The notes under the pieces: model-generated
Seen by the model: only the letters and a program-made list of their open reading frames with translations
Told to the model about the DNA's origin: nothing
Database searches by the model: none
Assembly (NCBI RefSeq): GCF_900141815.1
Contig: NZ_FQYR01000002.1
Span: 1,031,091 to 1,095,090, forward strand
Source of the DNA: Rubritalea squalenifaciens DSM 18772
GTDB lineage: Bacteria; Verrucomicrobiota; Verrucomicrobiia; Verrucomicrobiales; Akkermansiaceae
Length of the DNA: 64,000 nucleotides
Direction: 5' to 3'
Program-made: the position numbers and the translations under genes
Shown here: one piece after another, positions 49,507 to 54,234 of the stretch
Numbering within the stretch: position 1 is the first letter of the stretch
Layout: each line of letters begins with the position of its first letter

Positions 49507-52500
49507 TTACATCATGGAGGATATAGAGGGTTGTAGATTTTTGATCAGTCCGCTGATGTAATCTGAGAAGATCAATACTACAAATAAAAGCAGGAAGAGG
49601 CCTGCTGTGAGTAATTTGATCATGGCAGTGTGTTTCTGCTGGAATTGAATGAGGGCATTGGACTTCATTCCGCCCATGGCCAGTGCAAAGATGACGATGA
49701 GCGGCAGTACGAATGCGAGGTTGTAGATAACAAGCATGGAGACTGCGTCTGCGCTGCCCTGGTTGATCTTGTAGATGATGGGTGCATAGACCTGACCGGT
49801 ACAGGCAAGTTCTAGGAATGAGATGGCGATGCCGGAGAAGAAGGCGGCGATGACGAAGCGGCTGGACTTTGCCCCTTTTCGGATGACACCGCGGATCCGG
49901 TTTTTCAGGAAGGATGGTAGCTGGAGAGTCATTTCATCCAGCTTGCCTTTGCGAGCTCTCAGGTAATCTCTGAATGAAAGGACTGCTACTAAGAGAGCGA
50001 AGCCTGCAAAGACGTAATTAAGAGCATTTCTGAGCCAGAGATAGCTGGTGTTTTCAGTGAGATTTTTAACAAAGCTACTGAAGAGTAGGCCGACCGAAAG
50101 GTAGGCAAGAAAGACGGCGAGAATGAATGCTGTGCCTACCATGAAGATCTCTTTCGGGGAGCGTTTGGCAACCGTGAGGTAGGAAAGGAAAAAGATGATA
50201 GTGGCAAAGGCGCAAGGGTTGATGCCGTCTAACAAACCTCCCGCGATGACGATGGGGAGGGTGAGGGCATCATACTTTGTCTCAACATGCTGTTTGGCCA
50301 TGGCGATTTGCTCCGGAGCTTTCAGGATGTACCAGTCCTTTTGCTCTGGGGAGTTCATGGTGTTCTCCAAGAGTCCGCCAAGTTTTTGAGCGGTAATAGG
50401 AGGGACAATGTAGCCGGTGGAAGTGAAGAAGGCTGGCACCTTGCCATCAGCAGTGGCCGGAAGATCGAGTACTCTGGAGAGATGGGCATTGAGTAGGATG
50501 CCGTCTTCAGAGGAAATCGAGAAACGTTTGATTTCAAGAAGAGGGAAGTCCCGTTTGAGATCTTTAGCTACTTCGATAGCTTTAGCACACTGGCTGCAAC
50601 CCTCTTTTTCAAAGAACACGAGAATGAGTGAAGCGCGCTTAGCCATTTCTTTGACTCTATCCTCTGGGGTGGAGAGGTGCTGCGGTGCTGTGCTGCTATC
50701 GATACTGGCAGCAAGCTCGGTGAATGTGGTGAAGCCGGATGAGTCGGAGTCATCGTCACTTTTGAAGTGATTGAGGATCGGCTTGTGTTTGCTTCTGGAG
50801 ATTCGCTTGAAGTCGATGTAGGCGAGTAGTGGGCGCATGCCTTTGCCCATGAAGCGGTAATTGTCTTCAACATGATCAGACAATCGATAGACAGCACGAG
50901 TTTCTTTGGGCTGTTTGTTAATCAGCGCGATGAAGGCTGGTAGGTCGATACTGCGTGAGTGGGTGAGGAGAGCAAAATAGGCCTCGAAACGGATCTGCTC
51001 CGATGGGTCAGCTTTTGCCATGTCGTAGAGGAGTTGCTCTGCATCAGTTGAGAGGCGCCTTCTACTTCTGGTCGAAGAGTAGGAGCTGTCACTGCGGGAT
51101 TCCAAGTCATTGAAATAGTGCATCCATGCAGATCCTCCTTTGGAGAATATCTCTGGTATGACAGAACGGACATTGGCGCTTTTGTCTGCGGAGAGTTTCC
51201 TGATGTTTTCCTTGAACCAGTTAGAGTTGCTATTTCCCAGGCAATGCCAGGCAGCTCGGCGTACCCATTGGTTTTCGGAAGTCGTGTGGGCGGCGATCGC
51301 TTGTTCATCAGATAACCTCAAGCCTGAACTCATGAGAATACAGGCTAGAATTTTAACTTCATCCGATGATTTGTCGGACTCTAGCTGAGTCTTGCACCAA
51401 GAATTTAACAGGCGACGGTTCCTGCTATTACGAGCGATATTACTGAGCCTGTATTTGTAGGCTTCGCTGGGCTTCAGCTTGGTGTCTTCTTGAACGAGAT
51501 TTTCCAAAACCATCTGGATGAGAACTGCATTGTTCTCATTAGAGAGGGCGTTGTCAGCTGCTTCAGCCCGGATTTCACTGGATTCATCTTGAAGGAGAGC
51601 TTTGAAGATGGAGATTACATTGCCACTATTGGCTTTGTAGAGCGATTCTGCGAGTGATGCGCGCTTGCTGACTGGCATTTTTGCCACGTCCCCATTGAGC
51701 AGGTCTATACCGCGCTTGTCGCCAGCTTTCGTGAGTACGAGGCAGATCTGGAAAGTACGTTCTTGGTTATCAGTATTCTGAGCCAGTTTGACGAGTGTTT
51801 CTTTAAGAGTGTTAGCGCCACCATGGGCACTGGTCTCTACGGTGAGGAGCGGGCCTAGCTGCTTGCCGTTTGGTCTGATGAAGGCGTCGTAAAGTGGATC
51901 AAGTGAAGTTTTTTCACTGTTGAGACCAGAGTCGTTGATGAGTCGTGTCAGTCTAGGGTCTACAAAATTGGTTCTGGGTAGTTCAAGCGTGCTCAGCACT
52001 GCCTGAATTTTCTCATCAGATCCAGAGTTGATCGCATCGGTGATTACATTGGCCACGAAGTCGTATTCTAGCTTGTCTGAGTCATTGGCAATGGTTCGCA
52101 GAGCTACGCAGGCAACGTCGAGGTTTTCGTGTGTACAAAGTGCGGCGAGTATCTTGAGCCTATCCTGCTTGTCTCCACTGAAAGCTTTAATCGCTGAGAT
52201 GATGGTGTCAGGATCTCTAGATAGTAGATGGGCACGTAGTTTGTCGGAAAAAGATCCAGCGAGGCTCATGTACGCCGGGGTGAGAGAACCAATGAGATCA
52301 TCATGTTTTAAGTAGAGATCCTCAAAGATAGGAATAGCCTCTCTGGCTTTTAGGCTGACAGCTGCGGCTATGGCCTTGGAGCGTACATACTCGTCTTTAC
52401 CGTTCTTTAGTAGCTGGAGAATCTTGTCTTTGGCGTCACTCGCTTTACAGCGGTCAACGTATTCAACCGCGGCAACCCTGACCCTCCAACGGGGATCATC

Positions 52501-53592: not shown

Positions 53593-54234
53593 TTAATGGA
53601 GTAAGGCGTAGGCGAGAATGTTTGCGTTGACTCGGACCGAGTCATTAATTTCGTTCCCCCCTCAACAACAGCACCCCTCTGTGTTAGAGGTGTCATTGAG
53701 GCCATCCGATGAGTATACGACCACGAGTTTGTCGTTGTGGGTAATGCCGTGTAAGGTGGCAGTGCCACCATGGCTGAGCTTCATCGACTTGATCGTAAAG
53801 ATGGTTTTGAATAGGGCGTGATCCATCGGAATGTCTTTGAGAGCGTCTTTGTCGAAGATGCGCTTGATTTCACGCTCAAAGGCTGTGGCCCATGCTTTGT
53901 TAGAGCAGCCCGGGGAGGCGAGCAGGAAGCCACCATTCTCCAAGTATTTCTTCATGTTTTCCCTCTCCTTGCTGGTAAGGGTGAAATCACCCTCACCCGT
54001 CATGATGACGAAGGGGAACTTGAAGAGTTCTTCGGAGGAGAGCTTCACAGGCTTGAATCTGCGCTCAGTGGATACGGATGTCTTCTGCTGAACAGTTGTC
54101 AGGAATTCGTCACTGAAGCACTTGGATGTTTTGGTGCCTGCGTAGATCAGGTTGCCGCATTGTACGGCACCTTCTTTGGCTGTGGCGATGCCTAGGGACA
54201 TGACCAAGCTTGCTATGATTGCGGGTATTTTCAT
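53593..54234 (-). CDS. DUF4159 protein, probable selenoprotein (in-frame UGA)
   Basis: A predicted 213-residue exported protein. Signal peptide about 1-20. DUF4159 features include VIMTGEGDFTLT and ENGGFLLASPGCSN. A conventional reading stops at TGA 53662-53664 after 190 residues, TEGCCC. The frame then runs on as GGNEINDSVR then VNANILAYALLH to TAA 53593-53595. In DUF4159 relatives, as I recall them, a CCCCGGNEI-type C-terminus is usual, so the UGA would sit at the fourth Cys. A 17-nt hairpin with a GGUCC loop follows the UGA. UGA is an ordinary stop for other genes here and tRNA-Trp has anticodon CCA, so I infer selenocysteine at residue 191 rather than code change. C26, C39, C110 and C188-190 are the other cysteines. 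Function unknown; redox chemistry is likely. Confidence 0.85.
53628..53644 (-). promoter_or_regulatory. Candidate bacterial SECIS hairpin
   Basis: In the minus-strand mRNA UGACUC-GGUCC-GAGUCA forms a 6-bp stem with a 5-nt loop beginning GG. The stem starts 17 nt after the UGA and the loop G is at +24. The E. coli fdhF SelB-binding mini-helix is also 17 nt with a GGUC loop, at about +19. The palindrome lies inside the read-through coding region, which limits synonymous freedom. Confidence 0.8.
53662..53664 (-). other. In-frame UGA, proposed selenocysteine codon
   Basis: TGA after TGC TGT TGT in the DUF4159 gene, followed by 22 sense codons that encode a plausible family C-terminus. A recoded codon explains the sequence better than a true stop. 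Confidence 0.82.

Follow-up and report, generated by a model that had tools for sequence, protein, structure and literature searches.

In the 64,000-nt stretch of Rubritalea squalenifaciens DSM 18772 DNA analysed here (the window), a gene for a DUF4159 protein contains an in-frame TGA and is followed by a gene for a large fusion protein carrying a thioredoxin-like domain and a membrane module. This raises the question of whether the TGA is read as selenocysteine (Sec) and whether the two products exchange electrons in the cell envelope, as had been proposed in a sequence-only reading of the region in terms of a possible Sec-dependent redox relay. The features concerned are collected in Table 1.

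Table 1. Features of the DUF4159 locus and its operon (window coordinates).
Feature	Position	Strand	Basis
DUF4159 gene, TGA read through (putative selenoprotein), predicted exported	53592..54234	(-)	translation and Pfam
In-frame TGA, putative selenocysteine, residue 191	53662..53664	(-)	same codon in 8 genomes
Bacterial SECIS-like hairpin UGACUCG-GUC-CGAGUCA	53628..53644	(-)	loop 24 nt past the UGA
HEAT scaffold-thioredoxin-CcdA fusion, 1348 aa, predicted exported	49507..53553	(-)	Pfam and profile comparison
Thioredoxin/glutaredoxin-like domain, CSQC (Cys986, Cys989), aa 972-1078	50320..50640	(-)	CxxC invariant in 48 sequences
CcdA/DsbD-like six-helix module, aa 1097-1333	49555..50265	(-)	Cys1114 (NPCAF) and Cys1251 (LACTGQ) invariant
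MoxR AAA+ ATPase, first operon gene	62210..63193	(-)	
DUF58 protein	61326..62207	(-)	
BatA/VWA protein	59274..61298	(-)	
730-aa membrane protein, same operon	57079..59271	(-)	
930-aa membrane protein directly upstream of DUF4159	54259..57051	(-)	neighbour in 76/81 loci

Translated with the TGA as Sec, the DUF4159 gene encodes 213 residues, from a signal-peptide-like N-terminus to an end reading ...GCCC-U-GGNEINDSVRVNANILAYALLH before a TAA stop. The codon stands in the motif CCC-UGA-GGNE and the frame remains open to the true end of the domain. Once the TGA is read through, the Pfam model DUF4159 (PF13709) is matched to its last position (202/202), with a score of 105.5 bits against a gathering cut-off of 25.9 (E=3.4e-30); the gene therefore ends at 53592 and not at 53662, where an ordinary ORF call places it. 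The same model was matched by all 72 relatives searched, no NCBIfam model matched the selenoprotein, and a plasmid search returned distant DUF4159 proteins only. The view of the CCCU as a C-terminal tail had to be given up, since it is followed by a further 22 conserved residues, the last helix among them. Ordinary gene calls leave these selenoproteins 23 residues short. In this subgroup Cys39, Cys110, Cys188-190 and Sec/Cys191 are invariant, and Cys26 is nearly so. A distant DUF4159 paralogue (26% identity; G072:C233:11155-11637) has one internal TGA, either a second Sec site or a plain stop.

A scan of named genomes yielded 80 relatives, to which a separate same-genus search added more. TGA occupies the same codon in eight genomes, namely that of the window, four from the named scan (L047, L048 from Persicirhabdus sediminis, L050 and L051) and three from the same-genus search (L194, L195 and L196). 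About 75 relatives have TGC or TGT at this codon, i.e. CCCC; one sequence of the scan is cut before it, and the same-genus search gave one further TGC (L193). Cys forms outnumber Sec forms by about ten to one, the exchange taking place at a single codon within an otherwise conserved sequence. A UGA shared at this codon by eight genomes is not due to chance. In a tree of the 80 sequences, the Sec forms lie on one side of a branch (87/81); with the same-genus sequences added, two Sec/Cys changes are required, in a tree with an unresolved base to this clade. Because the Sec sequences cluster within the Cys-bearing ones in these trees, Cys appears to be ancestral and Sec a later gain, with one likely reversal from Sec to Cys in L193.

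The published rules for bacterial SECIS elements specify a loop of 3-9 nt, a stem of 4-16 bp, a G in the first two loop positions, a distance of 16-37 nt from the UGA and an MFE of -7.5 or lower (PMC13188914). The window hairpin conforms to them (loop GUC, 24 nt, -8.5 kcal/mol). In all eight Sec forms, a hairpin occupies this same place. None of the 75 Cys forms from the named scan has one at that register, and seven of them carry some hairpin elsewhere in range. The energy of the hairpin is weaker than -7.5 in L048 (44 nt), L195 and L196, and the MFE of a single hairpin is not significant against shuffled sequences, which fold as well; for these reasons, energy cannot decide the matter by itself. 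As an Rfam search of the region for SECIS or other RNAs gave nothing at the gathering score, the element was assessed against the published rules and through covariation. Among nine related sequences, compensatory changes were seen from C-G to U-A at one pair in three and from G-C to A-U at another in two, and as many covarying cells as observed arose in only 2 of 500 shuffles. On five sequences the signal was not significant, and significance came only with the same-genus sequences, whose kinship was not controlled; given that relatedness, the covariation is supportive of a SECIS, not conclusive. In L193 (G493, same genus; 2038-2081), TGC stands in place of the UGA while the hairpin is intact, as are the SVRVN residues that it encodes. 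This is probably a fossil SECIS left by a recent Sec-to-Cys reversal, a pattern that has been described before (PMC1794560).

The genome of the window also carries a tRNA-Sec with anticodon TCA, SelB (300 bits) and SelA. SelB was found in all five UGA genomes tested, against 4 of 22 Cys genomes; the same five UGA genomes gave SelA (5/5), SelD (4/5) and tRNA-Sec (5/5, with hits of at least 50.8 bits). The selD gene of the window genome (G000:C3:915205-916134) has an in-frame TGA of its own, as in Sec-containing SelD, and so does that of two other UGA genomes. The marks of a bacterial selenoprotein, an in-frame UGA, a reading frame that stays conserved past this codon and homologues with Cys at the site, were all found for DUF4159. 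Sec decoding is established here to a bioinformatic standard: the UGA in eight genomes, the Cys relatives, the Sec machinery and the hairpin bear out the selenoprotein originally proposed, and the UGA of the window gene is very probably decoded as selenocysteine.

For the neighbouring gene, a CSQC thioredoxin plus a CcdA/DsbD module on a HEAT scaffold had been suggested, and all of these domains were found, the CcdA part weakly in Pfam and more firmly by profile comparison with DsbD. The protein starts with a signal-peptide-like segment, followed by about 900 aa of HEAT repeats. The Pfam glutaredoxin model was matched in 26 of 48 fusion members, and the thioredoxin-like domain is recognized by its CxxC, which is invariant in the 48 sequences together with both Cys residues of the CcdA module. 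The Pfam model DsbD_TM gave 15.4 bits with the window protein (E=0.012) and 22-23 bits with its same-genus relatives, all below the cut-off of 27.1. Profile comparison against real DsbD proteins gave E=1.4e-4 and aligned the catalytic Cys, NPCAF with MPCVF and LACTGQ with ATPCTAP; the 48 sequences and this alignment reveal the two symmetric membrane-embedded catalytic Cys of such modules. When the Trx-CcdA model was submitted to Foldseek, no match was obtained at E <= 0.001, and a PDB sequence search with the corresponding profile returned nothing meaningful. Judging by the charged loops and the positive-inside rule, a location of the thioredoxin domain and the C terminus outside the membrane would fit.

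Next, the conservation of the gene pair was followed in 81 loci including the window, of which 60 show the whole HEAT gene and two more a truncated one, while several short contigs show its start. All 60 complete HEAT genes beside DUF4159 carry a thioredoxin domain, and 48 of them also CcdA. Of the 12 without CcdA, six have a C-terminal thioredoxin and six an N-terminal thioredoxin domain only, which in L117 is without the CxxC. A single gene intervenes between DUF4159 and the HEAT gene in a few planctomycete loci. The two genes thus do not separate freely. A phylum survey of 387 genomes, based on reading frames of at least 1300 aa with Trx-CcdA, detected the fusion in 20; 19 of these adjoin a CCC[C/U] DUF4159 gene and the remaining copy (G467) begins at a contig start, so that the fusion, sought apart from DUF4159, was not found there. 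Twenty-six of the 387 genomes have the close DUF4159 form: 19 with the fusion, one (G283) with both genes on separate contigs, five with an N-terminal thioredoxin-HEAT gene adjoining and one (Akkermansia G134) with nothing. Where these genomes carry further DUF4159 paralogues (e.g. G018, G011 and G131, in the class sample), those do not lie beside the fusion. A weaker, unfused Trx-CcdA family devoid of HEAT repeats is frequent elsewhere (88 of the 387 genomes in all); it is therefore the HEAT-fused form, and not CcdA as such, that accompanies DUF4159.

Seven Akkermansia loci with long flanks (L071, L074, L075, L076, L077, L092 and L099) keep a CCCC DUF4159 gene with the HEAT-thioredoxin gene gone, and also keep the MoxR operon where the contig reaches; A. 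glycaniphila (L068) retains the HEAT-thioredoxin gene. In two further loci (L161, 2138-3514; L162, 2107-3489), a sibling CCCC DUF4159 stands beside a homologue of an UshA-like (seleno)protein that is joined to a multihaem part resembling cytochrome c554, and an UshA-like homologue also adjoins the sibling in L158 and L159. These homologues score 246-250 bits with NF041198, just under its cut-off of 275. The UshA-like multihaem cytochrome, which in L161 and L162 stands in place of the fusion, is another redox partner and counts in favour of the envelope pathway proposed below.

DUF4159 and the fusion are the last two of seven operon genes. The gaps from moxR to DUF4159 measure 2, 27, 2, 27 and 24 nt, and 38 nt separate the DUF4159 stop from the ATG of the fusion. 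The gene order recurs, with the 930-aa gene present in 76 of 81 loci and MoxR in 49, which are most of the loci whose contig reaches that far. In view of this recurrence and of the small gaps, the seven genes are likely to be on one transcript; the single transcript initially deduced from a 39-nt spacing is retained on the strength of the conserved, close-packed operon, and the spacing itself is corrected. Promoter-like sites were fewer in a scan than in shuffled sequences, a result that speaks neither for nor against an internal promoter. MoxR, DUF58 and BatA/VWA genes occur together, as in Bat operons, whose function is unsettled: in Leptospira biflexa, deletion disclosed no role in oxidative stress (PMC3557215). 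In the literature searched, we found no description of this operon with a DUF4159/thioredoxin end, and no paper among those searched mentions DUF4159. Elsewhere in the window, two tandem long ORFs (31546-35436 and 35482-39639; 1296 and 1385 aa) resemble rpoB/rpoC by size and order alone.

The predicted model of the DUF4159 protein (pLDDT 86.7) has the fold of 4i66 (Hoch_4089, DUF4159; Z 20.8), and HisH-type glutamine amidotransferases are recovered at Z about 10. In the model, Cys110 comes after the core strand 103-106 and before a helix, which may place it as the nucleophile of a glutamine-amidotransferase fold. The last helix comes after the CCC[C/U] loop, which may lie roughly at the position of the catalytic His-Pro-Glu loop. 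We infer both placements from secondary structure and end-to-end offset.

The invariant Cys of DUF4159, with a CxxC and two membrane Cys encoded next door, fit a relay from CcdA through thioredoxin to DUF4159. Cytosolic electrons would cross the membrane via the CcdA module, reach the CxxC thioredoxin domain that the HEAT scaffold carries in the periplasm, and go on to DUF4159, an exported protein in which the CCC[C/U] site would be kept reduced. This loop, probably with Cys110, would constitute a redox or metal(loid)-handling site on a glutamine-amidotransferase-like fold, and its fourth Cys would have become selenocysteine in one verrucomicrobial group. We consider that the last two genes of this PVC operon of the MoxR-DUF58-BatA type have a somewhat better than even chance of forming an envelope reduction pathway that keeps CCC[C/U] reduced; the topology, the electron transfer between DUF4159 and the fusion, its direction and any substrate are deductions from sequence. 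The Cys forms, more numerous than the Sec forms, go with the same partner gene, so that the pair antedates Sec; with the two genes together in nearly every relative, this suggests a conserved pathway of envelope reduction that was in place before selenocysteine. A Sec-dependent relay, which had been put forward as possible, is accordingly not supported, all the more as CcdA is missing in 12 of 60 complete genes and the seven Akkermansia loci are partnerless. The retention of all Cys in these seven loci and the absence of CcdA from 12 others also count against the relay itself. Furthermore, a run of four Cys would be just as suited to metal binding, and the thioredoxin/CcdA protein may act on other envelope proteins that the operon encodes.

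The first of these possibilities, that the CCC[C/U] loop binds a metal or metalloid with Cys26, Cys39 or Cys110 and that thioredoxin/CcdA merely keeps the ligands reduced for loading, in the manner of CcdA/ScsB-type systems that support the maturation of cofactor proteins, appears rather unlikely, yet it has two observations in its favour. Up to seven conserved Cys/Sec residues, four of them consecutive, are found in a small exported protein, and all Cys are retained in the partnerless Akkermansia loci. However, a known metal-site signature was not found in the DUF4159 protein, and Sec is commoner in redox-active sites, the majority of the selenoproteins known being thiol-oxidoreductase-like (PMC13188914). 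We regard as more doubtful still a shared operon without electron exchange, in which the fusion would act on BatA/VWA and the upstream membrane proteins and DUF4159 would function separately. Because all seven genes keep their order, the last two stay neighbours in part as a piece of the operon, and their adjacency is unspecific when taken alone; the upstream genes and DUF4159 persist in Akkermansia where the partner was lost; against this, the fusion accompanies this DUF4159 subtype and not the other paralogues. Finally, an ordinary stop, damaged codon or pseudogene, as suggested by the ORF caller's termination at the TGA, is hardly credible and was rejected in view of the TGA common to eight genomes, the conserved downstream sequence with its complete PF13709 match, the co-varying SECIS, the Sec machinery and the Sec/Cys pairs.

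The preferred reading, an envelope reduction pathway, can be carried further, and here we are more tentative: it is possible, if short of probable, that these proteins form a new selenoprotein family in which CCC[C/U] replaces the amidotransferase-like catalytic residues, giving an oxidoreductase or metal(loid) enzyme of the envelope that draws its electrons from a dedicated HEAT-scaffolded Trx/CcdA pump within a MoxR/Bat operon. If the preferred reading is right, it would add a selenoprotein family on a fold not commonly tied to thiol redox chemistry. It would also provide a first biochemical handle on an operon conserved in Verrucomicrobiota, Lentisphaerota, Kiritimatiellota and partly in Planctomycetota, and would suggest that MoxR/Bat-type systems can act in envelope thiol redox homeostasis. 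Cultured relatives, Persicirhabdus sediminis (Sec) and Luteolibacter pohnpeiensis (Cys), make the pathway testable.

Neither the families tabulated in a 2026 review of 119 (PMC13188914) nor the nine new ones of deep-Sep (PMC12013277) were found to include DUF4159; with known bacterial selenoproteins, DUF4159 shares the Sec/Cys pairs, the bSECIS and SelA/SelB/tRNA-Sec. By comparison with 4i66, the window protein is a clear DUF4159 family member of the same fold, but the CCC[C/U]GG loop with Cys39 and Cys110 marks its subgroup, 4i66 being devoid of the cluster in a profile alignment. The fold is also like that of class I glutamine amidotransferases and ThuA-like proteins (HisH etc.), whereas no likeness to their catalytic triad emerged. 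As in Bat (Bacteroides aerotolerance)/MoxR operons, MoxR, DUF58 and BatA/VWA follow in the same order, but the operon here ends in the pair of DUF4159 and HEAT-Trx-CcdA genes. With the DsbD/CcdA/ScsB systems of reductant import, the fusion has in common the six-helix module, the two aligned catalytic Cys and a CxxC thioredoxin domain assigned to the periplasm. Unlike them, it falls under the Pfam DsbD_TM cut-off, its thioredoxin precedes the membrane module, both hang on an exported HEAT scaffold of about 900 aa, and it is tied to one neighbour gene.
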